Part shown: in pieces, positions 470-64,000 of the stretch
Position numbering within the stretch: position 1 is the stretch's first letter
Layout: every line of letters begins with the position of its first letter
Assembly (NCBI GenBank): GCA_030272155.1
Contig: CP126205.1
Coordinates: 2,530,501-2,594,500, forward strand
DNA length: 64,000 nucleotides
Direction: 5' to 3'
Source: Tetradesmus obliquus
Lineage: Eukaryota > Chlorophyta > Chlorophyceae > Sphaeropleales > Scenedesmaceae
Position numbers and translations under genes: made by a program
The notes under the pieces: model-generated
What the model was told of the DNA's origin: nothing
What the model saw: only the letters and a program-made list of their open reading frames with translations
Databases searched by the model: none

Positions 470-541
470 GTGCGCAGGCTGTCGATTTTTTTGCAATATG
501 ACAAGCCTTCCCATCCAGATGGCCTCATCGTCTGTTTCATG
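470..541 (+). repeat. Decayed copy of the PRP28 Q-motif exon start
   Basis: An acceptor-like cag is followed by a degraded version of the first bases of the 602-785 exon (gctgtcgatttt, then atgacaagcc and ccatccagatggcctc). The flanking upstream text (catgcgatgcctgcttgtgc) also resembles that before the true exon, so the unit is intron end plus exon start. Confidence 0.7.
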
Positions 542-601
542 TCAACACATCTGCTATGCAACATGTGTGTTTGCATGCCATGCCCTCTGCTTTGTGCTCA
601 G

Positions 602-3600
602 GCCGTCGACTTTGTGCAGTATGACAAGCCCTCTCCCATCCAGATGGCCTCCATCCCTCTGGGCCTGAAGCAGCTGGACGTCATCGGAGTGGCAGAGACA
701 GGCAGCGGCAAGACAGCGGCCTTTGTCATCCCCATGCTGTGCTACATCATGCGGCAGCCAGTCATGGACGAGAGCAACTACGCAGGTGCGCTGGCACATC
801 TTGCATTGTTGCGTACTGCAGGCTCATGTCATGATGCCGATTATTTGTTGTGGCTGTTACATGTGTGAAGAGGGTGTTGGCGGCACCAAATCGGTGTGCG
901 CCTGGCTTTGGCTCACAAGCATAGCTTGTCACAACCACGTCTGGTGCATAGCTTGTGGTAGACAGCCGCCTTTGTCATCCCCATGCTGTGCTACATCATG
1001 CGGCAGCCCTTCATGGACGAGAGCAACTACGCAGGTACGATGGCGGGCTGCTACAGCCAATGAACAGCTGCATTGAGCCATGAGAGGCGCAGCACGACTG
1101 CATGTGTGCTGTGCGGACCTGTACCAAGCAGGGCTGGATCGGCCCGCATGCCAGTGCGTCTGGTGCTGAGGGTTGGCAGAACGTATGTGGAGATGGCGCA
1201 GAGCTAGCATCCTCGTCTCCGTGATGCCACCCATCTGTCCTGCTCGAAACTCACCAGCTTTTGCTGCCGCGCTGCTGCTGCGCCTGCAGACGGCCCGTAC
1301 GCTGTGGTGCTTGCGCCCACGCGTGAGCTGGCGCAGCAGATTGAGGAGGAGACAGTGAAGCTGGCCAAGTACACAGACTTCAAGTAAGTGCGCCGCGCCT
1401 GCTGTTGCATTATAATTGTGATATCCCGAGCTATGTGCATGCATGGTAGCTGTGCAGCAGATTGAGGAGGAGACAGTGAAGCTGGCCAAGTACACAGACT
1501 TCAAGTGAGTGTGTTGCTTGTGCTGCTGCCTCAAGAGCAGTAGAAGATTTGTACATGCGTGTGTTTTGTGCATCAAGTTGAGGAGGAGACGGTCAAGCTG
1601 GCCAAGTACAAAGAACTTTAAGCAAGTCGCTGCTGCTGCCTCGCATCAGTCGAAGCCATGTGTGCTTGGCTGTGGCCTTCATTTACATGCTCAGTGTCAC
1701 CCGAGCCCTCCGAGTGGCGAACATAGCAGTAACCATCTTAATCACCATTGTAAGCCTCCCATCTGCAGTCCGTTGCATTGCATGCTGCAACTGGCTCCGA
1801 CTTGAATGCACACACTGCTACTGCTCATCCGCACTGCGCTCCTCTGCTGCAGGGTGACATCGGTGGTGGGCGGGCAGTCGATTGAAGAGCAGGGCAGCAA
1901 GCTGCGCCGCGGCTGCGAGATTGTCATTGCAACACCCGGCCGCCTGCTGGACTGCATCGAGCGCCACTACTGCGTGCTGAATCAGTGCAACTACGTGGTG
2001 CTTGATGAGGCAGATCGCATGATCGACCTGGGCTTCGAGCCGCAGGTGGGCTGCTGGAGATGTGCCAGTATGTTGGCTGTATGTATGACCGCGTGTTTGA
2101 CTGCGCGATTGACCAGTATAACCTGTGTGGTGCTGGATGAGGCAGATGGCATGATCCACCTGGGCTTCGAGCCGCAGGTGAGCTGCTGGACGTTTGACCG
2201 CATGTTTGACTGTATGTTTAGACCGCGTGTTTGACTGCGTAATTGACCAGCATAACCTGTGTGGTGCTGGATGAGGCAGATCGCATGATCGATCTGGGCT
2301 TTGAGCCGCAGGTGGGCTGCTGGAGGTTTGACCACGTGTTTGACTGTATGTTTTGACCGCTTGTTTGACTGCGTGATTGACCAGTGCTACTACGTGGTGC
2401 TTGATGAGGCGGATCGCATGATTGATCTGGGCTTTGAGCCACAGGTGGGCTGCTGGAAGTTTGACCGCGAGTTGACCGCGCATGTGACTGCATGTTCTGT
2501 GTATGTTTTGCTGCTGATGCTGCTGCTGATGCTGCTGTTGCTGCTGAACTTTGACCACAGGTGCAAGCAGTGCTTGACGCGATGCCTCATGCTACACTCA
2601 AGCCCGAGGACGAAAACACGGAGCTGGACCAGAAGCGCACCTACCGCACCACCTACATGTTCAGTGCAACCATGCCGCCAGCAGTCGAGCGGCTGGCGCG
2701 CAAATACCTGCGCAGGTGGGGCAGGTTTAGGTTGATAAGTCTATCGGTCGAGTTTGTTCGTGCTCCTCTGTAAGCCCTGTTGCTATAGCAGCACTACATG
2801 TTCAGCGCCACCATGCCGCCAGCAGTGGAGCGGCTGGCGCGCAAGTACCTGCGCAGGTAAAGGCATAATCAGGATTCAGGGTCAAACCTTATGCTCCTAC
2901 TAGGAATTGCATTTGATGCCATGTGCTGTGTCTTGTGTGAGCACTGTGCCCCAAGCTATGCTGTTGTAGCCAGGTTCAGTTCTGCGTCTTCCTGTGTCTG
3001 TACTGGCACGCCTGTGCAACAGCTTCTTCCTCCTGCTGCTGCTGCTGCTGCTGCCGCTGCGCCAGGCCCATTGTGGTCAACATCGGCCGTGCGGGTATGG
3101 CTGGCGAGAACGTGACGCAGCGCGTGATCATGATCAAGGAGAACGAGAAGGCGCACAGGTGCGCGAGTGTGCATGCATGTGCATGTGATTGTATAAAAGG
3201 GGCTGCATGTCAAAGCGATGTGTTAATGTGCGCCTGACAGCAGCAGCTACATTGATGTATGCGTGCGATGAGGATGTGAAGCAAACGTGCAGCTGCAGAG
3301 TGGCGGCGCTGTGAGATGGTGCAAGAAGATGCTGCTGCCGTTTGTTGTGCATGCTGTGCTCTGAGCTGGACTTGATCCACGGGAAGAAGGTCACCATGAC
3401 TGAATCACTTTTCACGTGTCCAAGACAGCAACACACATGTTTTTGTACACCTATCCACCCCACAGGCTGTCGTCTGAGCTGGACATGATCCACGAGAAGA
3501 AGGTCATCGTGTTTGTCAACACCAAGCACGATTGCCTGCGCTAACCGTATGTGTCTGTGCTGCTTTCCTGCAGGCTACGTCTGAGCTGGACATGATTCAT

Positions 3601-6085
3601 TAAAAGCAAACCCACCACTTTTGTATCACCCTTGATGCATCCAACGGTCTGTGTTTGCACCCATCCACCCCACAGGCTGTCATCGGAGCTGGACATGATC
3701 CACGAGGAGAAGGTCATCGTGTTTGTAAACTCCAAGCACCATTGCTCGCGCTGATTTCATTTGTCTGTGCTGCTTGCCTGCCGGCTGTCGTCTGAGCTGG
3801 ACATGATCCATGAGAAGAAGGTCATCGTGTTTGTCAACACCAAGCGCCACTGTTTGCACTAATCCCATGTGTCTGTGCTGCTTGCCTGCAGGCTGTCATC
3901 CTGCTGGACATGATCCATGAGAAGAAGGTCATCGTGTTTGTGAACACCAAGCACCACTGTTTGCACTAATCCCATGTGTCTGTGCTGCTTGCCTGCAGGC
4001 TGTCGTCTGAGCTGGACATGATCCACGAGAAGAAGGTCATCGTGTTTGTCAACACCAAGCGCCAGTGCGACAACGTGTACGCGCACCTGGAGGACGCGGG
4101 CTACCACTGCACCGTGCTGCACGGAGGGCGCACACAGGACCAGCGCGAGGTGGGGAAATGCAGTGCGGCACGGTGTTTGTGTGTTTGTGTGTTTGATTGT
4201 TTGTTTGTTTGCTGGCGCAGTGTGATGCGGGCTACAACTGCGCTGGCTGCATGCAAAACCAGCTTGCGCAAGGTGTGTGACATCTGCAGCGTGGTGTTGT
4301 TGATGGTGAGATGCATGTTGCAGATTGTGTGTATATGTTCGCGGGGCGGCGGTGTGCGGCTGCCACTGCATCGTGCTTCGCGGACGACGCACACAGGACC
4401 AGCGCAAGGTGAGTGATGTTTTCATTGATGTGCTGTGTGTTTAATTGTTTGCTGGCGGTGTATAATGCAGGCAACCACTGCACCGTGCTGCACGGAGGAG
4501 GCACACAGGACTAGCGCGAGGTGGGAACAAACAAAGTGCGGCGCTGTGTTTGCGAGTTTGTTTGTTTGTTTGCCGGCGGAGTGTGATGGGGGCTACCATT
4601 GCACCGTGCTGCACGGCGGCCGCACACAGGACCAGCGCGAGGTGAGCAGCATGGCATCACATTCTTGGTTTACTTGGTAACTTGATTGCCAGCATTGGGT
4701 GCCTGCAGCTGCTAATGTCGAGCTTTGAACATTGATGTGTGCTGCATGGCACAGTGGCATGCGGCGTGTCTTGCTGCCTGCAGCTTCATCGGGCTCTGGT
4801 GGCTGTCCCTGACAGCTGGTTTAAATTATGTTTGACCGCGTTTGACTAGTTTTGATTGTGTTTGACTAGTTTTGGCGATGTGTGTCGTGGTGTGATTGGG
4901 TGCAGACCTCCATGAAGGCCTTCACTGGGGACACTTTATAACATGCTCATTGCCTGGGCTCTGGTGTTGCTTCCACAGCTGGACTAGAAAGCGTCATTTG
5001 ACTGTGTTTGACCATGTTTGACCATGTTTGACCGTGTTTGACCGGCTGCAGATCTCCATCAAGGGCTTCAAGGAGGACACCTACAACGTGCTCATCGCCA
5101 CAGACGTGGCAGGGCGTGGTATCGACGTGCCTGATGTGGCTCTGGTCATCAACTACGACATGCCCAATAACATTGAGGCATACACACACAGGTGAGGCAT
5201 GCAGCTAGTTAGATGGGGCTGATTCAGTGACAGCCTGCCTCTGCTGAGTTGCTCGAAGCGCGTCATCAACTATGCCATGCCCAACAACGTTGAAGCATAC
5301 ACACACAGGTGGACATGCAGCTAGTCAGCATGGGGGTGGTTGGTTGAACTCTGCAGTGCAGACATGCGCAATGCAGCACATGCTTGCATAACATGCGGCA
5401 GCACATCGTGTGTATGTTGTGCTGTGCACCATTCACATAGTCTCGGTTAACCATGGTGCCGTGTCGATGACCAAGGCGATGCTTCTGCCTTGCTTGCTTG
5501 CAGGATTGGCCGCACGGGTCGTGCTGGCCGTAAGGGAACAGCCATCACATTCCTTACAGGTAGGTTGAGCGCTGCCGACTTTGCATGTGCCAGCATCATG
5601 CATGCCTGATTTACTGCTGCTATCGCTGTACTACAGCAAGGTCTCATGCTTTCGGCGCCGCTATGCGTGATTTATGTGCTGTCACCTTTTAACGCATGAA
5701 GGGCATCTGCTGCAAGCTGGTGCATTCTGCAGTGCGGTCTTGCTGATGCAGCATGCCCTACTGCTCTGTGCAGTTTATAACCCTGCCTGCCAACACCACA
5801 GCTGTCCCTTGATGCTGCTGTTGTTGCTGGTTTGTGTTGCTGTGCTGCTGCTGCGAGGGCGGCAACAGTGAGGTCTTCTACGTCATCTGTTGTTATTGTG
5901 ATCGTTATATGTTGTTATTTTGCTGTCCTGCAGGCGGCGACAGCGAGGTCTTCTACGACCTCAAGCGCCTGCTGGAGGAGAGCAAGGCGGTGGTGCCCCC
6001 TGAGCTGGCGCGCAGCGAGGCAGCCAAGCAGAAGCCAGGCGGCGTCAGCCAGAAGCGAGACAGCATCCAGTACGCCAAGAAGTGA
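602..6085 (+). CDS. PRP28: PRP28/DDX23-type DEAD-box spliceosomal ATPase (5' end off window)
   Basis: By homology this is the ATPase that displaces U1 from the 5' splice site so that the tri-snRNP can be activated in the nucleus. The visible exons are 602-785, 1290-1383, 1853-2045, 2561-2715, 3066-3158, 3999-4149, 5052-5191, 5504-5559 and 5934-6085. All junction phases agree and give 405 residues. Motifs in order are Q ([13 protein letters not shown]), I (AETGSGKT), Ia (PTRELAQQ), Ib (TPGR), II (DEAD), III (SAT), IV (VIVFVNT), V ([10 protein letters not shown]) and VI ([10 protein letters not shown]). The segments [23 protein letters not shown] and [15 protein letters not shown], and the C-terminal [10 protein letters not shown], point to PRP28 rather than other DEAD-box families. 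The N-terminal third of the family is not found in bases 1-601, so the gene probably starts left of the window. Its introns are full of decayed copies of its own exon edges. Confidence 0.9.
962..1037 (+). repeat. Copy of the 3' edge of PRP28 exon 602-785
   Basis: This repeats the coding bases for [13 protein letters not shown] and DESNYA with few changes, followed by a donor-like ggtacg. It lies in the intron directly after the true exon. Confidence 0.85.
1453..1624 (+). repeat. Two copies of the 3' edge of PRP28 exon 1290-1383
   Basis: The copies at 1453-1506 and about 1570-1622 repeat the bases for [16 protein letters not shown]. The first keeps a donor-like gtgagt and the second is more decayed. 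Both lie in the intron after the parent exon. Confidence 0.8.
2112..2446 (+). repeat. Three tandem copies of the PRP28 DEAD-box exon edge
   Basis: Copies at about 2129-2176, 2258-2311 and 2392-2443 follow the true exon end (1993-2045). Each repeats the bases for [17 protein letters not shown] and then gtg[ag]gctgctgg. The spacing is 130-136 bp. Intron text with tttgaccgcgtgtttgactg is repeated with them, so the unit covers exon edge plus intron start. One copy reads [10 protein letters not shown]. Confidence 0.9.
2780..2858 (+). repeat. Copy of the 3' edge of PRP28 exon 2561-2715
   Basis: This repeats the bases for [21 protein letters not shown] (split: [21 protein letters not shown]) with a donor-like gtaaag. 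It lies about 140 bp downstream of the parent. Confidence 0.85.
3355..3993 (+). repeat. Six tandem copies of the PRP28 motif-IV exon start
   Basis: Copies begin near 3362, 3464, 3573, 3675, 3782 and 3891, before the true exon at 3999. Most carry an acceptor (ctgcaggctgtc or cacaggctgtc), then bases for [19 protein letters not shown], then a tail such as caccactgtttgcactaatccc. The spacing is 102-109 bp. Some are nearly perfect and others are internally deleted. Confidence 0.9.
4340..4645 (+). repeat. Three copies of the PRP28 [17 protein letters not shown] exon edge
   Basis: Copies at about 4346-4409, 4466-4520 and 4588-4641 repeat the 3' edge of exon 3999-4149 together with the following gtg[ag]g donor and a tttgtttgtttgctggcg intron segment. 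Spacing is about 120 bp. Confidence 0.85.
4900..4957 (+). repeat. Decayed copy of PRP28 exon 5052-5191 start
   Basis: A tgcag acceptor is followed by text matching [16 protein letters not shown] at reduced identity, with an in-frame stop. It lies about 145 bp before the true exon. Confidence 0.7.
5255..5310 (+). repeat. Copy of PRP28 exon 5052-5191 end
   Basis: This repeats the bases for [16 protein letters not shown] and the gtggacatgcagctag intron start. It lies about 118 bp after the parent edge. Confidence 0.85.
5853..5886 (+). repeat. Short copy of the last PRP28 exon start
   Basis: The text gagggcggcaacagtgaggt and following cttctacg matches the GGDSEVFY start of the terminal exon at 5934. 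Confidence 0.7.
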
Positions 6086-7215
6086 TGAGTTGCAGGCGCA
6101 AATGGTTCTGGAAGGGTGGCAATGGCTGCTTGTTGGATGCCGCTGTGTGAGCTGCAGGATGGGTGACAAGGACAGTCGGCAGCGTCTGCTGGGGGCAATG
6201 TGTTGACCATGTTTGACTGCCGCTGCAGCAGCAGCAGCTGGGCCCTAGCTGGGCACGCAACACAGAGGCATATGCTTTGGCAGCGTTCCTGCATGGTTGG
6301 CGCACTGGTCACTACTGCGCGATGGACACTGCGCAGCAGTAAGTTGTTTTTGGATGGGTGTGGCAGCTGTTGCTGCAGCCGTGTTTGCAAGCTGCATGCT
6401 GAGTGGGCCTGGCTGGACTTGCAGGATGTGATTTTGCAGCCATACGGCTGCAGCCGCAGTAACAGGCAATTGTATGTTGAGGAGCCGTGTTGTGATGTCC
6501 GTTTTCACCCATCTGCAGCAGCAGCAGCAGTTCTAGCACAGCAACAAGTGCCGCAATGCTGCAGCCAGTTGGGCGCAGACTGCAGCTTGTTGTGCACGTG
6601 CATTGTTGTCACATGCGTCAAATGGGCTCCAGGTGAACTTGACAGGCTGTGCTCTAGCAGTGTCTGTGGGATCTTGATGTGGGTGGAAGGGGAGCCGTAA
6701 CTGGGCTGAGATGTGATACTCCGCATCATGATCTGGGAGATGTGTCACATACGTTTCCTGTGTTACTGTGCAACCCTCACACCGGACGAGTAGCTTCAGC
6801 AAGTAGTCGTAACTGCTCTGCTGTTGGGTGGCCGGAGTGCTCTACTCCTGGGTGAGACTTCGCACAGGAACCAGCAGAGCACGTGAACTTACAAGAAATA
6901 TTTCTTAGCCGCAAAAACGAGCATCCGTGCGGCTACTCGTGGCAAAGCTCGGAGTACTGTCACCACGGATAGACCCCACGGGTAGCACCGTAGTAGTGTC
7001 ACATCAACTTGAACTCAGCATGTAACAGTTGCGCGCCACTTGCAGGAAATGTATTTAACCCCCGTAATGACCCTTCGTGTATGTATATGTCAACAACGGC
7101 TCACCGGAGCTTCGTCAACCTGCTCGGGTAACCTGATCTCTGCTTGAACGGGCGCGCCATACTGCCCAACAGCAACGCAGCCTTGGTTCAGTTCGTGCGT
7201 TCCAACATAATAAAA
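6086..7215. other. Intergenic, PRP28 3' flank and LRR-A 5' flank
   Basis: I see no gene here. CAG runs lie near 6226 and 6518. A TGTAA lies at about 7020 but is far from the PRP28 stop. Confidence 0.5.
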
Positions 7216-10190
7216 ATGATGTGGTGGGAGATAGTAGATGCTAACCGGGGCATGCGCAGCCCGCTGGGGCACGACTGCCTGCCCTTGGTGCTGCAGCAAG
7301 GAGTGGAGGACCTGCAGACAGCCTGCACCCTGCTGCAAACCTCCAAAGCCATGCGGGATGCTGCTCTGGCACACTGCTCAGTGCAGCTTGAGTTCAAAGC
7401 AGGTGAGCTGACTGCTCTGGTAGCGTGCTATGCTGCTGGACAATCCTTGATCCCGGCACTACCTCTTATGCTGTGCGTGCTGCTGCTCGATGTGATGCAG
7501 TGCAATGTGTGCATCAATGTGCTGTGTCTGTGTTGAGCTTTCGCTCTGGTCACCAGCCTGAAAGCTGCATCAGCATGGTAGCAAGTCACCGCTTGGTGCT
7601 GTCCTGCTGTTATGCTGCAACTGTTTCGTCTGCCGTTAATGGCAATATTGACCCGGCCGCTGCTGCCGCTGCTGTTGCTGCTCTGCTGTTTTGCTGCTCG
7701 CAGGCAAGATAGATCACGTGGATCGCGTTGCTGCATGGATCAACAAGTTTGGCTCCCTGCTGGGATCCTTGCAATGCACATGAGCCATCCAACCAGCAAG
7801 CTCCCAGGGCTGAACGAAGCGGAGCGAGCAGCAGCATTTGCAGCACTCGGCAAGGCCCTGAACCAAGCAGCAGCAACGCCTCACAGCCTGCGCCTGCGTT
7901 CCTGCAAGCTGGAAGTTGCCGACTGGGACTGTGCACACATCCTACAGCAGCTGCCGGTCAACACATTGACCAGTCTGGACTTACAGCTGGACCTCACAGG
8001 GCCCTGCGATGAGGCTGAATGTGTGCAGCGGCTTGCAGGAGTGAGGGCTGCACTGCCGCAGCTGCAGCAGCTGCGCGAGCTGTCACTCACAGTTGACTGT
8101 ATCACCTCTCGTGGCTTTGGAGATGCCCACTTGAAGCACGTGGACCCGCTGCTGCTGCAGCCGGGACAGCAGCCACTGCTGGGCCTCACATACCTAACCA
8201 GCCTCAAGCTCAACGCACTCTGGTCCTTTGAGTGAGTTCCATTTGTACTTGCCGCTGTCTTTGCTGCAGCGCTTGCCACAGGTCAATCCAGCCGCAAATG
8301 ATGTTTACCATATTGTGGCAGTCCTGCAGCTGCAGGCGTTGCTGTCCAGCACATAATAGCTGCTGCTTGCTTGCAGGATGCCGCAGCACCTGCCGTCCTG
8401 CACTCCTGTGGTCTGCCTGCGCTGCAGCACATGTGTTACAACACACGCACTGACGTGACACCAGATGTAACAACCATCCATATGCTTACTCCCTAGCACT
8501 GCTGCACCGTGCAATGATTAGTATCCATGACGGTGCCTGGACCCACGTGTAACGATCGCCTCTCAATTGCCTGCAGGACGCTGCGGCACCTGCCGGCCAG
8601 CCTGCTGGAGCTGGACTATATTTGGGATTATGATGCAGCGAGCCACCCGCTGAACCTGGCACACCTCACAGCACTCACCAAGCTGGCAACAGGTGTGTGC
8701 GGCAGAGCACTGCAGCAGTTGCTTCGACAGTCGCCAGCTTGTGTTGGTGTCTGTTTGCTGGGCATCACCAAGATTCAGGTAGATTATAGCCGCAGGCATG
8801 TTCATGGTATGCAGTGGAGTATGTTGGCATTGTCGCCAAGCTGTTGGTGTTCAAGGCACATGCTGCTTGCTGCTCAAAGAACCGCCAAACATGCTGGGGC
8901 TATCTGGCTAATGGGGGCTTGGTATCTTCATACGGTCAGTAGTACAGCATTTAACATGCCGCAGGCAACAGTACAGTGACTCACTATGCTGCTTGTGAGG
9001 GCTGTAGTTGTGCCTAGTTTCTCCTTCATTGGTTGGGCAGTGGTTTGGGCAGTGCAAATCACCCTCGCCAAAGCGTGAACTCCAGTCTCCCAGCCTTGGG
9101 CGGTGTTCAAATGCAACAGTGTGTGCATGTTCTGTCACAGCAATGACAACCACAGCATAGACTCCACTTGCCCCTGCCACTCGGCTACAAGTATGCTGCT
9201 GCTGCTGCTGCTGCTGCTCCTGCTGCTGCTCCTGCTGCTGCTGCAGGCGAGCACGTCCCCGTCTTCAGTGATGCCCAGCTGCCACGCAGCCTGCGGCACC
9301 TGGTGTGCGGACGCTTGCAAGACATACAGCCGCTGCTGCCGCTGCGCTACCTGCGGCGCCTGGACATCCAGAGCAGCCGCAGCACAGCAGCAGAGCTAGA
9401 TCGCCTGAGCAGCCTCACCGCGCTCACACAGATCAGCCTGGGCTACCGCCAAATTGACTGCCTCAACACAGCCCACTGTGTAGGTGTGGATGAGCGTAGC
9501 ATGGCGCCGAGTGCCGCATGTGCAGCCTGGCCTGCGCTGTCCTGCAAGCTGCGGCAGCTGCACATCGAGGTCATATATGAATTCCGCACAGAAGACCCGG
9601 CCCTGCGGGGCCTCAGTGCAGCAGCAGTGGCGGCGATCGGCAGCTTGTCCGCGCTCACAAGCCTGAAGTTGACCTTCGTAGACAGCCTGGAGGCCACCCC
9701 CACGCAGCTGGCAGAGGCGCTGCGCCGCTGCACAGCGCTGCAGCAGCTGAGCCTGGGCTGTGTGGAGCTGCAGTGGCTGCCGGCGGGCCAAGCAGCAGAA
9801 GATGATGATGATGAGGATCAAGCCAAGGCAGCTGGCATGGAGGCAGTGGCTGCAGCGGTTGCCAGCCTTCCAAGCCTGCAGAGCTTGAGTATTTTTGAGC
9901 TGCCGCTCAGCGTGCAGGCGACAGCCACGCTGGCATCAGCAGCAGCAGGCACGCAGCTGACGATGCTGCAGCTAGATGGCTGCGGCGTGACACCTGCAGG
10001 GCTGGCTGCGATAGCGCTGGGGTTGCCGAACCTGCGTCACCTGGATGCTGACGTGCATGGTGATGTCACTGCTGTGATTCCAGTGCTGGCCAGGCTGCCG
10101 CTGCAGCGGCTGCAGCTGGGGCATATTTGCACGTTCAGTACAGAGTCGCTGGCCGTGTTTCTGCCAAGTTGGAGGTCACTGCTGCGTTAG
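7216..10190 (+). pseudogene. F-box-like/LRR gene A, one frameshift
   Basis: Exons are 7216-7402, 7704-8231, 8577-8692 and 9247-10190, with the same intron positions and phases (1, 2, 1) as copies B and C. The N-terminus (LPLVLQQGVEDLQTACTLL, then TSKAMRDAAL) resembles an F-box, which would make this a substrate receptor of an SCF ubiquitin ligase. That role is inference. The rest is leucine-rich-repeat sequence such as LTSLDLQLDL, LPLRYLRRLDIQ and LPLQRLQLGH. The spliced length is not a multiple of three: in exon 2 the frame that reads GSLLGSLQ meets a stop near 7775, while the continuing homologous frame (SKLPGLNEAERAAAF) starts one base over, so there is one indel relative to B and C. It could be a recent pseudogene or a sequencing error. 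A (CTG)n run forms the 3' splice site of exon 4. Confidence 0.75.
9191..9246 (+). repeat. (CTG)n run ending at the LRR-A exon-4 acceptor
   Basis: About 17 CTG or CTC units end in ctgcag directly before the exon at 9247, so the microsatellite is the polypyrimidine-like tract of this intron. Confidence 0.9.
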
Positions 10191-43452: not shown

Positions 43453-43485
<33 letters not shown>

Positions 43486-48035: not shown

Positions 48036-48106
<71 letters not shown>

Positions 48107-52655: not shown

Positions 52656-52720
<65 letters not shown>

Positions 52721-55608
52721 CTGCTGTCCAAATCGCAGCAACCTGGCTTCAGAGGATGCTGGCCGCGTGTTTGTCACGGATGCCATCCTCACCACCATCA
52801 TGTGCTGCTGCTGCTGCTGCTGGTGCTGCTGCTGTTTTGCCAATTTGCAGCAACTTGGCCTCAGAGGATGCTGGCCGCGTGTTTGTCACGGACGCCATTC
52901 TGACCACCATCATGTGCGCCGCCAAGAGCGTGTACAGCTGGGACGTGGTGGTCACGCGTGTCGGGGACAAGCTGTTCTTTGACAAGCGCGAGGGCAGCAG
53001 CCTGGACCTGCTCACAGTGAATGAGACCGCGCCAGAGCAGGTGGGGCTTCTGAGTTGTGCCAGGCTGCATCTGGGGGTGTGTCGTCTGTCATTGCTTCAA
53101 GCACACGGTGTGTGCGCGAGCAGTAACCCATCATGTACCTGGCTTCGTTCATGCATTGCTGGCAGTTGATGTATCCTACTGCAACCCTATTGTGGCTGCT
53201 GCTGCTGCTGCTGCCAGGTGCCAGCGAACAAGGACAGCATCAACGGCGTGCAGCACACCTACCAGCTCGACCCTGCATCAAACATCACTGCCCTGCTGCT
53301 GCTGCTGCTGCCGCTGCTGCCACCACACAGGTGCCCGAGGACAAGGACAGCATCAACGGCGTGCAGCAGCTGAGCCTGGAGGCCACCATGATCAACCAGA
53401 ACCTCAGCCAGCAGCTGCTGGTCAAGGGAGGCGAGAAGTGAGTACTGCTGTAGCACTCTGTGCTGTGACGACATTCTACCAGCTGCAGCATCAGGCATGA
53501 GATATGAGAATTGAATCTAGCCAGCAGCTGTCAAGGGCGGGGAGGAGGGGGTGTGCTGCGAGACCAGCCCGCAGCTTGCCTCTTGGCCCGGCAGCGTCAT
53601 CATCATCACGCAGCGTTGCATGTTGACAAGATGTATATAGCAAACGAAACCAACGTGTTGTATTGCTGCATGTGGCAGCTTCCCTAAGCTGACCTGCTGC
53701 TGCTGCTGCTACTGCTGCCGCTGCTGCTGCAGGTCCAGCCTGGGCAACCCCAACCCCTTCGACGACGGCGCAGGGGAGCTGGCCAGCGTGGGATACAAGT
53801 GAGCGGCGCTTCATAATTTATTATCATGTTTGAAACCTTGTTGCAGACTGAACCTTGTTGCAGAATGACAGACCCCTTGTTGCAGAATGAGGAACCCTGT
53901 GGTATCTGCACCATGCACTGTGTTTGTGCTGTGCTGCGATGTGTGGGTGTGTCTCTCAGCAGTGTGTTCTGCTGCTGCTTGCCGGTCTTCTTTGCAGTAT
54001 CCTTTTCACTGCAGGGATGCCGGCGTGGACCTTGCTGCTGCTTGTGTTTCACTCAACCTGCTGCTGCTGCTGCCACCACTCTCCGCTTGCCTAATGTTGC
54101 AGGTACCGCCGCTGGACGCTCAACAGCGACGCTGGCGTGGACATCGTGGTGCGCTGCATGCGACCAACACTGCTGCTGCCGCACTGCCTTCCGTCACTGA
54201 TTGCTGCTGCTGCCGCTGCTGCTGTGCAGGTACCGCCGCTGGACGCTCAACAGCGACGCTGGCGTGGACATCGTGGTGCGCTGCGAGATTGATGGCGTGA
54301 TCAACAACAAGGGCGAGGACCAGTTGCTGAGCATCAAGGTGTGTGTGATGTGACTGGTTTGTATGGTGACTGTTGTGTCCATCACCATGTGCCAGTAGGA
54401 GTGGTGTGGCTGAGATCAAGTGGGCGAGGACCAGCTGCTGAGCATCAAGGTGTCGTGTGTATTGGCTTTTATGTTGAGTTGTTGAACTGGGTGCAGGTGC
54501 TCGCGCATGTTGGCGGGCAGGGATGTGCAGCTGCTCAGATGCAGGGATTTGCAGCGACTAGTCACGCTTGCTGTTGCTCCTGCTGCTGCTGCTGCTGCTG
54601 CTGGTGCTGCTGCTGCTTTCTCTCCCATTAGGCGTTGAACGTCTTTGACCTGCCCGCCAGGGACTGACGCAAACCTGCTGGCTCCCTGCCCTTCTCACCT
54701 CCTGCAAGTCAAAACTCACACTCCCGCTGCTGCTGCTACTGCTGCTCTGATCTGCAGGCGCTGAACGAGTTTGACCTGCGCGCCACGGACTGGCGCAAGA
54801 AGCTGGAGAGCCAGCGCGGAGCAGTGCTGGCCTTTGAGGCCAAGAACAACCTGGCCAAGCTGGCCAAGTGGACCATGGCTGCACTGCTGGCTGGAGCTGA
54901 GCTGGTCAAGCTCGGCTATGTCAGCCGCGCCGGCCCTAAGGACAACGGCAACCACGTCATCCTCGGCACGCAGGTGTGTGGGTGTAGGCCTAAAGTGTGT
55001 GTACATGTGGTTAAGACAACGGTCTTGGATGTTGTGTTTCTGTGGGTGCGGCTTAGGAGGTGTGGTCGACATGTCGGGGTCAGCTGGTGCTGCACCTGAC
55101 ACAACAGACGAGCAAGCGGCACGACCTGGCCAGCCAGATGAGTCTCAGCTGTCGCTGCTTTGCACAATAACTCTGTCTGACTGTTGTAATTCCTCCAATA
55201 TCTGCAGACGAGCAAGCCGCGCGACCTGGCCAGCCAGATGAGCCTGAACCCGGAGCACTGCTGGGGCATCGTGCGCGCACTGGCTGACTGGCTAACTGCT
55301 GACTGCTGCTGCTGCTGCTTGCTATTTCAAACCTGCAGACGAGCAAGCCGCGCGACCTGGCTAGCCAGATGAGCCTGAACCCGGAGCACTGCTGGGGCAT
55401 CGTGCGCGCCCTGGTGGACATGCTGCTGCGCCAGCCCGAGGGCAAGTACCTGCTGGTGAAGGACCCCAACAAGGACCTGCTACGGCTGTATGCTGTGCCC
55501 GAGGACGCCTTTGAGACAAACTATGTGGAGGAGCCGCTGGCTGATGCAGATGAGGTGCCTGCGGAGTCGGCGCCAGCTGCAGCAGCAGATGAGGCCGGCG
55601 ATGAGTAA
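49436..55608 (+). CDS. EIF3D: Eukaryotic translation initiation factor 3 subunit d
   Basis: Eleven exons: 49436-49604, 49717-49772, 50431-50631, 51735-51880, 52195-52290, 52851-53040, 53331-53437, 53733-53798, 54230-54338, 54758-54973 and 55339-55608. They give 541 residues, the expected length. eIF3d is a cap-binding subunit of the eIF3 complex that helps recruit mRNA to the 40S ribosome. Family blocks in order are [17 protein letters not shown] near the start, [17 protein letters not shown], the basic stretch [18 protein letters not shown] typical of the RNA-binding N-terminus, [91 protein letters not shown] and [19 protein letters not shown], then an acidic tail. Nearly every intron contains copies of a neighbouring exon edge. 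Confidence 0.95.
51366..51660 (+). repeat. Three copies of eIF3d exon 51735-51880 start
   Basis: Copies at about 51371, 51491 and 51609 carry a gcag acceptor, the bases for [15 protein letters not shown], then gtcacatgttgc and acacctgccacacacctgcc. Spacing is about 120 bp. Confidence 0.95.
52570..52803 (+). repeat. Two copies of eIF3d exon 52851-53040 start
   Basis: Copies begin near 52581 and 52738 with a cgcag acceptor and the bases for [20 protein letters not shown]. Each is followed by a CTG-rich run. An open frame runs across all three, but the CTG runs would add Ala or Cys tracts that the family lacks. Confidence 0.95.
53210..53262 (+). repeat. Copy of eIF3d exon 53331-53437 start
   Basis: This has (CTG)n, an acceptor, and the bases for [10 protein letters not shown], about 114 bp before the true exon. 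Confidence 0.9.
54060..54165 (+). repeat. Copy of eIF3d exon 54230-54338 start
   Basis: After an acceptor at 54103 the bases for [18 protein letters not shown] are repeated before the true exon, at near-identity. Confidence 0.95.
54408..54668 (+). repeat. Copies of the flanking edges of eIF3d exons 8 and 9
   Basis: At 54421-54450 the GEDQLLSIK end recurs with a gtgtcg donor. At 54631-54668 the ALN.FDLPARD start recurs with an in-frame stop. Confidence 0.85.
55095..55300 (+). repeat. Two copies of the last eIF3d exon start
   Basis: Text for TSK.RDLASQM recurs near 55100 and again, extended through [14 protein letters not shown], at 55207-55283. Both precede the true exon at 55339. Confidence 0.9.
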
Positions 55609-55639
55609 GCAGGAGCAGGATGGATGTCGTTGTGTGCTG

Positions 55640-55890
55640 CAGGCTGCTCAGATGAGGAGCCGCTCGCTGACGCCCATGAGGTGCCAGCGGAGTCGGCACC
55701 AGCAGCGGCAGCTGACAAGGCCGGCGATGAGCACGGAAGGAGGTTGTGTTGACAGCGTGTGACAGCATGTGACAGCACGTGGCGGTGACTGGGACACTTG
55801 GTCAAGGAGCTGCTGGCTGATGCTGGCGTGGTGCTGCAGAAGTCTGCACCGGCAGCAGCTGTGGGCGATGTCGGCAACAAGTGGGGTTGT
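55640..55890 (+). repeat. Copies of the eIF3d C-terminal coding sequence after the stop
   Basis: The bases for [20 protein letters not shown] recur at about 55655-55730, and a weaker copy (ELLADAGVV, SAPAAAVGD) lies at 55805-55880. Confidence 0.9.
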
Positions 55891-56880: not shown

Positions 56881-58146
56881 AAAGGACACCGTGCGATTGG
56901 CATTGTCAGGACGCCATACAATGCTCCCAACTTGACACGGCCGTCAAGAAACCATGCACAATCGATCTGTTGACAAGTGCACGAGGTGCTGACGGCTCCT
57001 TTTGAACAAACGCCGTGGCCCCGTGAAATAAAGTGCAGGCTGCTAAAGCACGTCACCTGCACTTGAAGTGCTTCATGTACTTGAGATGATTTTGAACCAC
57101 TGCTAGCTGGCAGTCAGCACAGCAGCATGTAAAGGACGTGGCAACATGATGTGGGAAGATGAAACTGCCAGTCTGTGTAAAGGTGAGTGACGCTGCAGGG
57201 CATGCGATGCGCACACCATGCCAGGGGGAACTACAGACTGCTGTGCAATACGGCGCTGCACTGTGCACAAGATGGCATGCCGAGCAGAACAGAATGCCAC
57301 GGACAGTGCAATATTGGTGATGTATGCTGTAACATGTAAGCAGTGTAGAGCACGGCATACCGCGCAGCTGCACAAAGACGAAAAGCAGCGCCCAAGCGCG
57401 CGAAAGCGTCAACCTCAGGCTGCCTGAAATTGGCCAGTCAACCTGCCTGAAGCCTGCCTGAAACTGCCTGCAACTGGCCATGGATGCGACTTTTCAACCA
57501 CATCATCTGGAAACAAAATGAAATCTGTTGTTTGTGATCAGCAAATAACGTGCAGCAAGCAACCCTACGCCATACATATCAAGCAGACGCCTTCCCCTAT
57601 CAGCATCATGCATGTTTTGCACCCCAGGCCCGGGCATGCAGTCATCACAAAGGTCGCCACATGCAACACGACAAGTACACCGTTGCATTCAACTCAGCAC
57701 GACAGACCAGAAAACTGCGCAGCCGTGCACTTGCTGCCAGCTGGCCTGGACACAACAAGCATTGCCGTCACCACCGCCGTGCAAATAGTACAATCGGACT
57801 GCCTTTATCTTGCTCTGTAATGATAGCAGCAGCACAATATACTCTGGCAGAGTATTGATAATCAGCCACTATCCCCTCCCGTGAGAGCCCAGTCTTGGCT
57901 CTTGACAGAGTTATCTGCCGCGTGGTGTGTGTGAGTGGGCAGAAAGTCAAAGAGAAACCGAAGCAACACGTGGATAACGCCAGCAGCAGTATGGATACAA
58001 GCCACATATCTGAATGTAACATGGTAATTTGCAACACCAAGCCATCAATCCCACCACAGCTGCCACTGCTGCATGCGCACACACACCACCACCATCAGCA
58101 ACATGCAACATGCCGCCCATCCTAACATAGCCTCTGCTGCTGGGCC
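56881..58146. other. Intergenic, no gene recognised
   Basis: Short ORFs only. The 3' flank of the cysteine-rich gene probably ends here on the minus strand. Confidence 0.5.
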
Positions 58147-61100
58147 TCACACAGGCACGCACTTGTTGTACCCATGGTTCGCCGGCTTATCAGGCGTCAT
58201 GCTCCCCGCCGCGCGCTGCTTGCACACCGCCAGGCCCTGCACGTCCGCAAACTTCCCGCCATTGCATGGCGCCGGCGGCACCGTCACTGTCGTGTTGCTC
58301 CCACCAGCACACGCAAACCCTAGGGGACAATCCCTGCATGCCACAAGCTCCGGATTCACATACTGCCCTGGCTTACAGGGGCCCACGCCTACTGCTGCGC
58401 AGTCATTGCATTGGTCAGGGACACAAAGCCTGCCCCAGCCGAATTTGGCAAGGATGCAGCGGCTTGCCGTGCCCATGCAGGGGCGGCGCTGCTGCTGCTG
58501 CTGCATGTGCATATGCATTACCACCACCAGCAACATGCAACATGCCGTACATGAAACCTCACACAGGGATGCACTTGCTGTACCCCTGGTTCGGCGGTTT
58601 ACCAGGCGTGGTGGTCCCCGCCGCGCACTGCTTGCACGCCGCCAAGCCCCGCACGTCTGCAAACTTCCCGCCATTGCACGGCGCCGGCGGCACCGTCACT
58701 GTTGTATTACTCCCGCCAGCACACGCAAACCCTAGGGGACAGTCCCGGCATGCCACAAGCTCCGGATTCACAAACTGGCCTGGCTTGCAGGGCCCCACCT
58801 TTACTGCTGCGCAGTCATTGCATTGGTCGGGGACACACAGCCTGCCCCAAGCGAACTTGGCAAGGATGCAGCGGCTTGCGGTGCCCATGCAGGGGCGGCG
58901 CTGCTGCTGCTGCTGCTGCTGCTGCATGTGCATATGCGTCACCACCACCAGCAACATGCAACGTGCCGTAAATGACACCTCACACAGGAGTGCACTTGCT
59001 GTAACCCTGGTTTGCCGGCTTATCAGGCGTCGTGGTCCCCGCCGCACACTGCTTGCACTGTGCCAAGCCGCGCACGTCCGCAAACTTCCCGCCATTGCAC
59101 GGCGCCGGCGGCGCCGTTACCGTTGTAGTACTTCTATCAGCACACGCAAACCCTACGGGGCAGTCCCGGCATGCCACAAGCTCCGGATTCACAAACCGGG
59201 CTGGCTTGCAAGGTCCCATGCCTACTGCTGCGCAGTCATTGCATTGGTCGGGGACACACAGCCTGCCCCAACCAAACTTGGCGAGGATGCAGCGGCTTGC
59301 TGTGCCCTTGCAGGGGCGGCGCTGCTGCTGCTGCTGCTGCTGCTGCTGCATGTGCATATGCGCTACCACCACCAGCAACATGCAACATGCCGTACATGAA
59401 ACCTCACACAGGGATGCACTTGCTGTACCCCTGGTTCGGCGGTTTACCAGGCGTGGTGGTCCCCGCCGCGCACTGCTTGCACACCGCCAAGCCCCGCACG
59501 TCCGCAAACTTCCCGCCATTGCACGGCGCCGGCGGCACCGTCACTGTCGTGTTGCTCCCACCAGCACACGCAAACCCTAGGGGACAATCCCTGCATGCCA
59601 CGAGCTCCGGATTCACAAACTGGCCTGGCTTGCACGGGCCCACTCCTACTGCTGCGCAGCCATTGCATTGGTCAGGGACACACAGCCTGCTCCAACCGAA
59701 GTTGGCCAGAATGCAGCGGCTTGCGGTGCCCATGCAGGGGCGGCGCTGCTGCTGCTGCTGCTGCTTGTGCATATGCGTTACCACCATCAGCAACATGCAA
59801 CATGCCGTAAATGAAACCTCACACAGGGATGCACTTGCTGTACCCCTGGTTCGCAGGCTTAGCAGGCGTCGTGGTCCCCGCCGCACACTGCTTGCACTGT
59901 GCCAAGCCGCGCACGTCCGCAAACTTCCCGCCATTGCATGGCGCCGGCGGTGCCGTCACTGTGGTGTTGCTCCCGCCAGCACACGCAAAACCTAGGGGAC
60001 AATCCCTGCATGCCACAAGCTCCGGATTCACAAACTGGCCTGGCTTGCAGGGACCCACTCCTACTGCTGCGCAGTCGTTGCATTGGTCGGGGACACACAG
60101 CCTGCCCCAGCCGAATTTGGCGAGGATGCAGCGGCTTGCGGTGCCCATGCACGGGCGGCGCTGCTTGCCGTTGCGGCAGCGGGGTTTGCGCGGAAGGCAG
60201 GCGGCGTTGCAGCCGCCGCAATACCTGCACATGCAGAGAGGCAAGCATACAGGCAATGCGTCACTCGATAAAAAAAGGCATGCAGGCGAGTCAGGTGGGC
60301 AGGCAGGGAGGCAGGCCGTGTTGCAGCCGCCGCAAAACCTGCACAGTCAGGCCGGCAGGCGATTGCTGAGTCAGGCAGGCAGGCAGGGAGGCAGGCGTGG
60401 AGGCAGGCAGCACTGCTTGTGGGGCAGGCAGGCCGCGTTGCAGCCGCCGCAGTACCTGCACATGCAGACAGGCAAGCAGGCAGGCGATGCGTCACTCAAT
60501 AAAGAAGGCACGCAGTCGAGTCACGTGGGCAGGCAGAGAGGCAGGCCGTGTTGCAGCCACCGCAGTACCTGCACAGTCAGGCAGGCAGTGAGTCAGTCAT
60601 GCAGTTGGTGAGTCAGTCAGTCAGTCAGTCAGTCAGTCAGTCAGTCAGTCAGTCAGTCAGTCAGTCAAGGCAGGCAGACAGGCAGGCAGCGCTGCTTGCC
60701 GTTGCGGCAGCGGGGCTTGCGGGGCAGGCAGGCGGCGTTGCAGCCGCCGCAGTACCTGCACATGCAGACAGGCAAGCAGACAGGCAATGCGTCACACAAT
60801 AAAAAAAGGCATGCAGGCGAGTCAGGTGGGCAGGCAGGGAGGCAGGCCGTGTTGCAGCCGCCGCAAAACCTGCACAGTCAGGCCGGCAGGCGATTGCTGA
60901 GTCAGGCAGGCAGGCAGGGAGGCAGGCGTGGAGGCAGGCAGCACTGCTTGTGGGGCAGGCAGGCCGCGTTGCAGCCGCCGCAGTACCTGCACATGCAGAC
61001 AGGCAAGCAGGCAGGCAATGCGTCACTCAATAAAGAACGCACGCAGTTGAGTCAGGTGGGCAGGCAGAGAGGCAGGCCGTGTTGCAGCTGCCGCAGTACC

Positions 61101-62278
61101 TGCACAGTCAGGCAGGCAGGCAGTTGGTGAGTCAGTCAGTCAGTTAGGAACAGGCAGGCAGGCAGGCGGCGCTGCTTGCCGTTGCGGCAGCGGGGCTTGC
61201 GGGGCAGGCAGGCCGCGTTGCAGCCGCCGCAGTACCTGCACAGGAAGATAGCAGCAGCAGCAGCGTTGCGCGAGTGAGTGAGTGAGTGAGTGAGTGAGTG
61301 AGTGAGTGAGTGCGGGTTTGAAGCCACATCACAGCAAAGATGTTGTCACCAGCAGCCTTGCCTGCTTGCTGCCATGCAGCAGCACGTACTCTGACCGCCC
61401 TTCAACTGCCTGCCGTCATATCACCAGTGCTGCTCACTGCCGAGTGTACCTCCTAGCACTCACATGTTCAAAACGGCCCACTCAATGACTGCCAAATGCA
61501 TCCAAGTCAGCAGCCGACCAACTCACTCTGAGGCGCAGTAGCGGTTGCCGGTGCAATCCTTGGTGCTGCATGGATCCACCAGGCAGTCGACAAATCTACA
61601 CAAAAAATTTCAAACTGCACACAACCAGCTGCGCGTCACTCACTCTGAGGCGCAGTAGCGGTTGCCGGTGCAGTTCTTGGTGCTGCATGGATCCACCAGG
61701 CAATTGACCAGCGAATCGCCGATGCAGAATTTCGCAGGATCCTCAGGCTCAGGGCTGGGGCTGGGCTTTGCAGGATTGTCAATCTCCCTGCACTCTGCAG
61801 TGCACTTGCCACACCTCCGGGGGACGCAGACAGTGCCGGTTTTGCACGTTGTTGCAATACACGGGTTGTAGGGGCATGGGACGGTTGCCACTCCTGGGGG
61901 GCAGCTTTCTGCCGTGTCTGGGGTGACACAGAGAGGCACACACTTGCCGCCACAAGTGTACATCGCACAGACCTTATCTGGCATGCAGTCAACCAGCTCG
62001 CAGGTGAATTGCGGGGGTGGGGTGCCTGCACATCCGGGGATAGCTTTTGCGCCAGTAACGGGGCACACTGCAGCGGCACTGCTGCTGCTGGAAGTGCTGC
62101 TGTCATCCTGTTGCAGGCGCCTGCTGCTGCTGGCATGCTGCTGCAGAGGCTTAGCGGGAGTTGCGTCGCTCATCTGCTGCTCGGTGCTGAGCAGGGCCTT
62201 GCCGGAGCTGGCATCAGCGGCGCTGCTGCAGAGGGCGTGTGCAGCGACCAACAGGGCCAGGAGCAGTGCTCGAGACAT
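58147..62278 (-). CDS. Secreted cysteine-rich protein with five tandem exon-encoded repeats
   Basis: Exon 1 is 61644-62278 (ATG at 62278). It encodes a signal peptide (MSRALLLALLVAAHALCSS), a Ser-rich stretch, a Cys-rich region (CELVDCMPDKVCAMYTCGG, CVPRRCGKCTAEC) and a Pro/Glu linker. Exon 2, 59825-60224, adds YCGGCNAACLPRKPRCRNGK and the first repeat. Exons 59410-59745, 58986-59321 and 58565-58900, each exactly 336 bp, add three more, and 58147-58488 ends the protein. The total is 794 residues. Each 112-residue repeat runs RRPCMGTASRCILAKFGWG, LCVPDQCNDCAAV, PELVACRDCPLGFACAGG and CKQCAAGTTTP, resembling the GCC2/GCC3 or EGF/TNFR-like cysteine modules of extracellular proteins. A cell-wall or surface role is inferred. 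The last bases of every repeat exon, CCTGTGTGAG, contain both a donor (GTGTGAG) and an in-frame stop if unspliced. Confidence 0.75.
58153..60160 (-). repeat. Five tandem exon-intron units, 336-bp exons with 76-88 bp introns
   Basis: Exon parts are 58153-58488, 58565-58900, 58986-59321, 59410-59745 and 59825-60160, each 336 bp, separated by introns of 76, 85, 88 and 79 bp that end (minus sense) in (CAG)4-9. The exon copies are highly similar. Since 336 is divisible by three, any number can be spliced in or out without a frame change. Confidence 0.95.
60225..61250 (-). repeat. Array of copies of the YCGGCNAAC exon start with caggcagg filler
   Basis: The minus-strand gtacctgcag-like edge (plus: cagccgccgcagtacctgca) recurs near 60438, 60560, 60740, 60976, 61087 and 61220, with weaker copies (cgccgcaaaacctgcac) near 60330 and 60870. 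The two blocks 60258-60545 and 60788-61075 are near-identical duplicates of each other. The copies near 60740 and 61220 keep the full CLPRKPRCRNGKQR coding text. Confidence 0.85.
60606..60667. repeat. (AGTC)n microsatellite, about 15 units
   Basis: Pure tetranucleotide run within the cysteine-rich gene's large intron. Confidence 0.95.
61272..61312. repeat. (GAGT)n microsatellite, about 10 units
   Basis: Pure tetranucleotide run in the same intron, close to the exon copy at 61220. Confidence 0.95.
61525..61597 (-). repeat. Copy of the exon-1 3' edge of the cysteine-rich gene
   Basis: The bases for VDPCS, TKDCTGNRYCASE and the gtgagt donor recur about 115 bp after the parent edge (61644). Confidence 0.95.
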
Positions 62279-62877: not shown

Positions 62878-63311
62878 GCAGCTTGGCAACTTGCTTTGAA
62901 AGCGCCATGCAACTTTCAGCAACACCAACCCCAACAAACGGCAACAACACGGGCTTGCTCAGCTGGTAAGGGAATTGCGTGTTTATCTGATAGCAGCGCG
63001 TTGTTTGGAAGATGCAGAAGCCACGCGCATTGCATTGCTGGCTAGGTTGACTCACCCAGCACTTGGAAGGCAGCAGCAGCCAGCGCATCCCCCAGCTGCT
63101 GCACCACCGTGGCAATGCGCATTGTGACAATGATCAGAACCAATGGTGCATGCAAGCACTAGAAACACTGCGCTGTCACCAGCAGTCCACCCACCCAGTA
63201 CTTGGAAGGCAGCAGCAGCCAGTGCATCCCCCAGGCGTTGCACCACCGTGTCGATGACAAGCTTGGCCGAGTACTTCTCGTCACGTGACACTACAGTGAA
63301 CAGCACCTGGA

Positions 63312-63343
<32 letters not shown>

Positions 63344-64000
63344 TTGATTAGTGCTGAAAGCTTGGCGAGTACTTCTCACTGCGTAACACAACGGTGAACA
63401 GCACCTGCCAGCAGCAGCAGAGCAGCAGCAGCAGCAGCAGCAACAATGAGCATGAGCAGCAGGTGTGCGCCAGCTGCTACGAACTGCCCAAACTGCGCCA
63501 GCGCACAGCATGCATCACTACAAAACCCAACCCCATTGCACGCAACCTGCTAGAAAGTTTCCGCAGTCCAGTCCCTGATTGGGTGATGGAGAAGAGTAGG
63601 CAACACTCAACTACATATCTGCACGCACCTCCCGTGACGGCCTGTACATGGCACACGCAAAGACCTTGCGCACCACCTCAGACACAGCATCCCCATCAGG
63701 GCACTAACACAACAGCAACATACCAATAAACGTCCATGCACCTCCCGTGACGGTCTTACACAGCATACGCAATAAGACCTTGCCTACCACCCGAGGCATA
63801 GCCACACTGGTATAACCACAACAAAACCAACTGCAAACACCTACCACTCCCGTGATGGCTGATGCACTGCGTAGGCAAAGACCTTGCGCACCACTTCAAA
63901 CAGCAATACTGGCAGAACTAACAACATAACCAACTTCAAACGCCCACCCACCTCCCTTGAAGGCCTGCAGACGGCGTATGCAAAGACCTTGCGCACCACC
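62684..64000 (-). CDS. TLC/ATP-ADP-carrier-like (NTT-like) membrane protein, 3' end only
   Basis: Visible exons are 63952-64000 (open at the right edge), 63195-63306 and 62684-62832. Phases agree through the stop. The text VVRKVFAYAVCRPSRE, then VLFTVVSRDEKYSAKLVID, then TVVQRLGDALAAAAFQV fits the conserved loop of the nucleotide-transporter-like (AAA, TC 2.A.12) or related MFS family, which has R.VL.TVVSR.EKYKAK..ID...QR.GDA. The final exon holds one hydrophobic segment (GVGAAGVAMCFVWLATA) and a short charged tail. Most of the protein lies outside the window, so substrate and location cannot be judged. Copies of each exon edge lie in the introns. Confidence 0.55.
63052..63125 (-). repeat. 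Copy of the carrier-like exon 63195-63306 end
   Basis: The bases for TVVQQLGDALAAAAFQVLG and a gtgagt donor recur about 139 bp after the parent edge. Confidence 0.9.
63360..63410 (-). repeat. Copy of the carrier-like exon 63195-63306 start
   Basis: The minus-strand bases for VLFTVV.R.EKYS recur after a gcag acceptor with a CAG-rich surround. Confidence 0.85.
63600..63905 (-). repeat. Three copies of the VVRKVFAYA exon edge
   Basis: Copies end near 63631, 63735 and 63844 before the parent edge at 63952. Each encodes VVRKVFA.A or a decayed version, then PSRE and a gtgcatg or gtgggt donor. Spacing is 104-109 bp. Confidence 0.9.

Follow-up and report, generated by a model that had tools for sequence, protein, structure and literature searches.

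Copies of exon edges in adjoining introns of the green alga Tetradesmus obliquus: short direct duplications and a possible trace of exchange between diverged haplotypes

Introduction

In the potato RdRp gene, a tandem genomic duplication across an intron-exon boundary gave rise to a new intron (PMC4974935); it is the only gene with a junction-spanning duplication found in the literature searched and a close precedent for the arrangement described here in Tetradesmus obliquus. The subject of this study is a window of 64,000 nucleotides (C15:2530501-2594500 of assembly GCA_030272155.1), in which an earlier note had pointed to introns of unrelated genes that hold copies of the neighboring exon edge. 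As in potato, the duplication extends across a junction and places some of one copy within intron. Unlike the potato case, in which one gene gained a new intron, dozens of copies are spread over many genes of the alga, none was seen to have made a new intron, and for roughly half of the clean cases the match leaves the intron out.

Three other systems are comparable in part. In the AGGT, or proto-splice-site, model, introns are gained by exon duplication, and exon duplications in Drosophila are treated in the same source (PMC2891723). The model shares with our case local tandem duplication in coding genes; however, it needs splice signals within the duplicated exon and yields an exon-derived intron, whereas the free ends of the algal copies carry no signal above control. 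By our own reasoning, it expects an arrangement other than the one seen here. Small tandem duplications also arise by fill-in at breaks, involving CST, Pol alpha-primase, and end joining, and most span nearly the whole overhang (PMC8355091). The algal duplications are likewise small, direct, and tandem, with displacements mostly of 80 to 160 bp and a floor near 80 bp; staggered breaks that are filled in and then joined end to end give rise to tandem duplications of this general kind, and this is a candidate route for the alga. Finally, introners, reported chiefly from rapidly evolving groups that include green algae, also change introns genome-wide (PMC9860276). Unlike introners, each copy here is related to its own neighboring exon, and the dispersed matches that we examined were CAG/CTG runs or triplet-rich.

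No report of a genome-wide set of exon-edge copies was found in the literature searched, in which subscription journals were thinly covered. The words "intron," "exon," and "tandem" are absent from the main text of a 2025 comparison of Sphaeropleales, which tabulates GCA_030272155.1 at 104.70 Mb in 17 contigs (N50, 6100 kb; GC content, 56.5%).

Results

Short direct duplications, mostly displaced by 80 to 160 bp, are present in many parts of the genome, and those that span one junction appear as exon-edge copies in the adjoining intron, some of them amplified into arrays. The assembly (104,662,953 bases, 17 contigs, N50 of 6.12 Mb) was examined in the window and in 25 further ten-kilobase samples (L006 to L030) that cover all 17 contigs. 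Direct repeats within 2 kb were found in 15 of the 25 samples and were absent from the other 10; single-base shuffles, a weak control with one shuffle each, gave no repeats in 31 of 31 ten-kilobase segments. Exon-edge pairs numbered 66. The window holds 21 of them and 13 of the 25 samples hold the other 45; their presence in so many other samples argues for the genome-wide process of local, direct, tandem-type duplication that the earlier note had proposed. That they are artifacts of assembly is hardly credible: we found no point in support, and the pairs are 73 to 98% identical, spaced apart, and spread over 12 of the 17 contigs of a chromosome-scale assembly, which may be the phased long-read genome named by Craig et al. 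(2025).

Genes were modeled with a hidden Markov gene finder trained on the window and sample sequences, which yielded 115 kb of coding sequence and 334 introns, with a GTG.G donor and a TGCAG acceptor, and agreed by eye with many conserved exons. It overlooks some exons, for example, at 28.0 and 44.3 kb, and labels several copies as exons; because its labels differ there, the eIF3d pair at 54098, the array at 28038, and the EndoG pairs at 43.8 to 44.3 kb stand outside the set of 66. A looser pair search of the window and samples, with simple repeats masked, gave 340 pairs in 141 families; pair counts exclude pairs more than 400 bp apart and pairs with overlapping members. Of the predicted introns, 27 of 72 in the window, and 79 of 338 once the samples are added, contain 20 bp or more of a local duplicate of some kind, so that the statement that most introns hold copies applies, by eye, to PRP28, the kinase, and eIF3d but not in general.

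The duplications are overwhelmingly direct and close to their parent, as had been described. Self-comparison of the window by BLAST gave 99 direct against 9 inverted pairs. Displacement was under 1.2 kb for 90 of the direct pairs and at least 600 bp for every inverted pair. Exon edges at the 5' end are copied upstream and those at the 3' end downstream: the copy lay in the intron adjoining its edge in 44 pairs, which is tandem geometry, and on the wrong side in 2 (L021 5137/5489 and L026 9022/9161), either of which may be a gene-finder error. Pairs with a junction label on both members carry no information on this rule. Scattered insertion of copied fragments is disfavored by the same counts. 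No paralogous donor was found for a PRP28 array, a 690-bp query from which matched only its own region. Queries from L021 and L026 gave many scattered matches among the candidates scored (39 of 459 for L021 and 40 of 437 for L026); the 12 query stretches taken from these matches were CAG/CTG runs, contained them, or were triplet-rich.

The spacing has a lower limit. The smallest displacement per family was 80 to 160 bp in 99 of the 141 families and below 80 bp in 1. All 84 junction families were displaced by at least 80 bp, 71 of them by 80 to 160 bp; among the 57 other families, 28 fell in this range and one, an exon-exon family, below it. Planted duplications with 8% of letters redrawn were recovered in 35 of 36 cases at 60 to 80 bp (0 of 24 at 40 to 50 bp), so the dearth of displacements of 60 to 80 bp is real, and periods of 50 to 79 bp were absent among the 266 Tandem Repeats Finder arrays kept. 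Arrays at exon edges have periods of 84 to 134 bp, in agreement with the spacing first noticed, and their unit contains the splice site. Displacements as a whole have their mode at 100 to 140 bp, most plainly in the junction class, and minisatellites below 50 bp stand apart as a group of their own.

An enrichment at junctions over intron interiors, which the earlier note had proposed as its test, was found in the window and samples when each genic pair was slid randomly within its locus in 300 trials. The set comprised 154 nonredundant pairs at most 400 bp apart, less 25 touching predicted intergenic sequence. Junction-touching pairs numbered 84, by chance as many as the junction families (45.6 ± 5.4 expected), intron-intron pairs 16 (38.3 ± 5.2), pairs of exon interior with intron 11 (20.8 ± 4.2), and exon-exon pairs 18 (24.3 ± 4.1). 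The clean pattern, in which one member is entirely intronic and the other is an exon edge, accounted for 46 junction pairs; the remaining 38 of the 84 were left without a split by intron length. Clean pairs with at most 12 bp on the intron side numbered 27, against 4.2 ± 2.0 expected and a null maximum of 11, whereas those with a longer intron side were at chance level (19 against 14.3 ± 3.7). In the clean subset, the excess is thus confined to matches that end at the splice consensus, and duplication therefore need not be aimed at junctions; the earlier idea of duplication around splice junctions holds for the excess but does not need targeting.

We term a pair precise if its match includes at most 12 bp of intron and extended if it includes more. 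The 66 pairs divide into 36 precise and 30 extended, and into 39 at 3' edges and 27 at 5' edges; the copies had been said to carry the splice site with some intron, and the splice site is indeed in the unit, but intron is attached in only about half, since 36 of the 66 have 12 bp or less. When 3'-edge pairs are anchored at the junction, their exon parts agree at about 0.9; identity is 0.77 to 0.92 at positions +1 to +5 and falls to 0.56 at +6 and 0.41 at +7. At 5' edges, the CAG at -3 to -1 has an identity of 0.85 to 0.89, followed outward by 0.69 at -4, 0.65 at -5, and 0.50 at -6, and identity is close to background by -13. In arrays and many families, the matched length fills the displacement; in precise pairs, the sequence between the blocks is unmatched.

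Such endings could point to a splice-site-recognizing process, that is, RNA-using repair or a spliceosome-defined end, that copies edges up to the consensus, and the stop at the consensus on both donor and acceptor sides, with its six-fold excess over chance, is what that process would leave. We nevertheless consider it improbable, since direct orientation and the count of 44 against 2 are unlike scattered RNA-templated insertion; a neighboring exon joined to a copy was not noticed among the copies read, although no dedicated search for one was run. Copying from a cut exon RNA end was rejected as well: the copies contain the GT of the donor plus some five bases of intron, none of which a cut exon would have.

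The intron flanks of precise pairs show little sign of common descent. Among the 35 of 36 pairs tested, the mean z score of flank similarity was 0.84, with 17% above 2 (means of 0.60 at 3' edges and 1.17 at 5' edges). Simulated homologous flanks with 10 to 30% substitutions plus insertions and deletions (indels) gave mean z scores of 3.9 to 21.3, and 3.9 was still reached at 30% substitution with heavy indels. A few pairs (L016 4321 and EndoG 40470), as well as copies that belong to longer arrays, have flanks that resemble another place in the gene within 1.5 kb.

These flanks bear on an alternative in which all copies are in-cis tandem duplications whose intron halves decay faster, while selection on one partner keeps the exon halves visible longer. 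In 58 pairs with a copy called noncoding, parent and copy mismatch at rates of 0.083, 0.077, and 0.192 at codon positions 1, 2, and 3 and of 0.155 in aligned intron columns; the contrast between introns and codon positions 1 and 2 is that expected of two free lineages against one. Likewise, divergence is higher in the part derived from intron (0.269 against 0.137) in all 8 window arrays, where that part also has roughly nine-fold the gap columns, and the substitution ratio of extended pairs (below) fits. Yet the 20 precise pairs that are at least 90% identical have a flank mean z score of only 1.01, with 15% above 2, and simulated decay of the strength seen in the arrays or stronger (25 to 30% substitutions plus indels) was detected in 100% and 69%. 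Faster intron decay alone is an unlikely account of the whole set, though a serious one.

The pattern of substitutions separates the two kinds of pair. A copy that was dead from birth should show a ratio of four-fold-site mismatch to position-1,2 mismatch of at most about 2. With CpG omitted, the ratio was 1.86 in the 30 extended pairs (bootstrap range, 1.41 to 2.47) and 3.97 in the 36 precise pairs (2.48 to 6.14), which suggests that the precise copies, like an allele, gained part of their divergence during a time when they were still coding. Without the copies called coding, the precise ratio was 4.23 (2.31 to 7.29; 25 pairs; probability of a ratio of 2 or less, 0.011), and at a stricter cut it was 5.16 (1.83 to 17.52; 15 pairs). 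Gene conversion between old tandem duplicates and the working exon, with introns left to drift, would account for exon-limited similarity, for the right-side geometry, and for the slow divergence of dead exon copies; however, it predicts a ratio of about 2 or less, and it should act on still-alike intron halves as well. It appears to us quite unlikely.

The copies do not look like exons, and there is no sign of function. Working alternative or mutually exclusive mini-exons could explain why the gene finder called some copies exons and why precise pairs have a synonymous excess, but the gap length is a multiple of three in only 3 of 51 cases, and PRP28 and eIF3d would have conserved segments twice over if the copies were included. 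At the free ends of precise copies, neither an acceptor nor a donor signal rose above control (mean rank P of 0.58 for 20 at 3' edges and 0.53 for 16 at 5' edges), and their median scores were lower than control; we regard this explanation as very improbable. The same motif test led us to reject the mini-exons with AG before and GT after that were seen by eye in eIF3d and PRP28, as well as an intron-like element with a long target-site duplication, which predicts the same free-end signals. It had been suggested that the process could make new introns or exons, of which we saw no sign; decoy splice sites, also foreseen, are evident, since 17 of 20 precise 3'-edge copies retain a donor score above 0.

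Discussion

The data fit best with two classes of copy. The first consists of in-cis tandem duplications, random with respect to junctions and dead from birth; in the second, an exon half that is similar with a synonymous bias and a largely intact splice consensus adjoin an unrelated intron half. We propose, as a reading to which we give slightly less than an even chance as a whole, that duplications of about 100 to 150 bp would arise everywhere without being aimed at splice sites, that selection would remove those lying within exons, and that exon edges would be visible as most intron halves already differed when they were joined. The joined ends most likely came from two strongly diverged haplotypes, alike in exon and splice consensus but not in intron; an unequal join of such homologous chromosomes would leave copies of the second class, and events within a single haplotype would give the class with intron attached. 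Events of the same kind inside introns would leave nothing alignable, hence too few intron-intron pairs; both the junction excess and the intron-intron deficit would follow if intron halves are mostly unalignable, a point of reasoning rather than a fitted result. A diploid T. obliquus "with extensive heterozygosity," possibly a hybrid, is mentioned by Craig et al. (2025), citing Biondi et al., and another strain has been assembled to 208 Mb, about double a 109-Mb draft.

Several observations weigh against this proposal. The haplotype step is an inference from one haplotype; the Sphaeropleales comparison lists another 17-contig assembly of T. obliquus, GCA_030272055.1, which may be the other haplotype. 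The eIF3d copy at 54098 is identical to its parent over 60 bp despite a differing flank. By our own arithmetic, the excess divergence at four-fold sites implied at birth comes to only about 8%, a level that should as a rule leave introns alignable unless indels dominate their turnover. The synonymous excess comes from 36 partly dependent pairs, several of them from one array, and the contrast in ratio shrinks to 2.49 for precise against 2.06 for extended pairs once base type and CpG class are matched. Eight aligned window arrays look in-cis and dead from birth (2.06 between parent and dead copy, 1.50 between dead copies). Distant intron similarity in some precise pairs shows that class to be mixed, and the 12-bp split was picked only once the distribution had been seen, which makes the contrast of precise and extended pairs exploratory. 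The gene models, too, are our own, were made without RNA data, and both miss exons and miscall copies as exons.

The more specific proposition, that consensus-limited copies are fossils of recombination between strongly diverged homologues in a diploid alga, is put forward as tentative and rather doubtful; repair with splice-site-defined ends is less likely still. If it is true, past illegitimate exchange between haplotypes could be read from introns, and it would be a main cause of their growth and of their decoy splice sites. A sharp prediction follows from the division into two classes, and a second phased haplotype would allow it to be checked. In any case, a dense and datable set of dead copies shows, as few data do, how introns grow longer and acquire decoy sites, and it carries a warning for annotation, as our own gene finder took several copies for exons.

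Individual loci

Reading and self-alignment confirmed the exon-edge copies claimed in five genes, named with their Pfam matches as PRP28 (DEAD), a kinase (PRK), EndoG (Endonuclease_NS), Maf (Maf), and eIF3d (eIF-3_zeta). PRP28, on the forward strand, opens the series at 404 to 651, where a 5'-edge copy (404-526) lies upstream of its edge (525-651; 78% over 131 columns, displacement 121). At 711 to 1044, the exon end 711-785 is copied at 960-1034 (match 711-795/960-1044, 94% over 85 bp); a donor follows both members, after which they diverge, with a flank similarity z score of 0.8. Sequence reading and self-alignment show a 3' edge with two downstream copies (from 1454 and 1570) at 1333 to 1642. 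A 3' edge at 1995 to 2473 has three downstream copies that include the intron part (period, about 134 bp), and another at 2653 to 2858 has one copy (2794-2858; 94% over 65 bp) whose match stops at donor position +2. About six 5'-edge copies with a period of about 108 bp precede the edge 3996-4068 (3348 to 4068). Farther on come a 3' edge with three copies (4358, 4467, and 4590; 4096 to 4646), a decayed 5'-edge copy 4851-4954 of 4997-5099 (4851 to 5099; 75%), and a 3' edge with a copy that includes intron (5262-5341; 5145 to 5341; 86%).

In the PRK-domain kinase, also on the forward strand, the 3' edge 28038-28072 is followed by eight copies (28038 to 29045) with a period of about 104 bp and an intron part common to the parent. 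Its Walker-A exon has a 3' edge with three copies (29402, 29504, and 29621; 29266 to 29740). Single copies follow the 3' edges at 30092 to 30256 (copy 30196-30256, 85%) and 31912 to 32157 (copy 32059-32157, 78%), between which a 5'-edge copy 31642-31737 of 31783-31879 is found (31642 to 31879; 82%). Two 5'-edge copies, 32154-32221 (93%) and 32309-32406 (88%), belong to 32551-32648 (32154 to 32648), and two more stand beside CTG runs at 32740 to 33156, where the parent edge ends at 33156.

EndoG and Maf are on the reverse strand. In EndoG, the 5' edge 40285-40346 has a copy at 40409-40470 (40285 to 40470; 94%) with weak residual intron similarity, and the 3' edge 41000-41056 has one at 40879-40935 (40879 to 41056; 89%). 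A 5' edge with two copies carrying CTG runs lies at 43181 to 43484, the 3' edge 44267-44316 with copies 44036-44096 and 43819-43868 at 43819 to 44327, and a 5' edge with four upstream copies at 44338 to 44728 (period, about 84 bp), its exon being the Endonuclease_NS match. Maf has a 5' edge with two upstream copies at 47430 to 47759 (period, about 116 bp); a second Maf-like gene is located elsewhere in the genome (G000:C6:1285666-1286591).

In eIF3d, on the forward strand, three 5'-edge copies with a period of about 120 bp precede the edge 51727-51783 (51364 to 51783), two precede an edge ending at 52923 (52545 to 52923), and one, 53195-53255, precedes 53301-53368 (53195 to 53368; 84%). The identical copy discussed above, 54098-54157, matches the exon start 54225-54284 in 60 of 60 bp from TGCAG onward, with different sequence before it (54098 to 54284). 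A 3' edge with copy 54422-54459 (95%) lies at 54311 to 54459; 5'-edge copies 55105-55145 (90%) and 55202-55283 (98%) of 55333-55414 begin their matches at CAG or CTGCAG (55105 to 55414), and the coding end is copied downstream at 55528 to 55731 (86%), the match stopping just ahead of the stop codon. The earlier "carrier-like" gene could not be identified; the gene at 61.4 to 64 kb, on the reverse strand, has four repeat families, with an exon-edge pair at 61521 to 61708 (94%) whose match stops at the donor consensus and more local pairs at 63050 to 64000 (63050/63189, 63259/63358, 63622/63945, and overlapping ones).

Other repeats in the window and samples

The cysteine-rich gene had been counted among the exon-edge cases; in its region at 58.06 to 60.18 kb, a coding unit of about 424 bp is instead repeated nearly five times in tandem, and the protein of the region has no Pfam match. 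A second array beside these units, with which they span 58059-61311, has a displacement of about 531 bp and includes CAGG and GAGT microsatellites. A 186-bp unit is repeated 5.8 times in tandem at 35377-36458, outside any clear exon.

Long CTG/CAG runs are very common in introns (for example, 32735-33067 and 48036-48106; also in L021 and L026), often beside acceptors and within duplicated units; they are a possible source of breaks.

Related, apparently leucine-rich-repeat genes, 65 to 80% alike in DNA, occupy both strands at 7127-23050. Direct repeats of 725 bp at 12671-13394 and 16951-17675 are 99.9% identical, with a 29-bp inverted match (13369-13397/16947-16975). Between them lie open reading frames at 13502-15705 that, judged by eye from a motif, resemble a DDE transposase; no Pfam match was found for 13502-14419. 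The region is possibly a recent mobile element. Sample L019 (C14:1500001-1510000), unlike the rest, has dense direct and inverted repeats and a GC content of 49% and is perhaps transposon derived.

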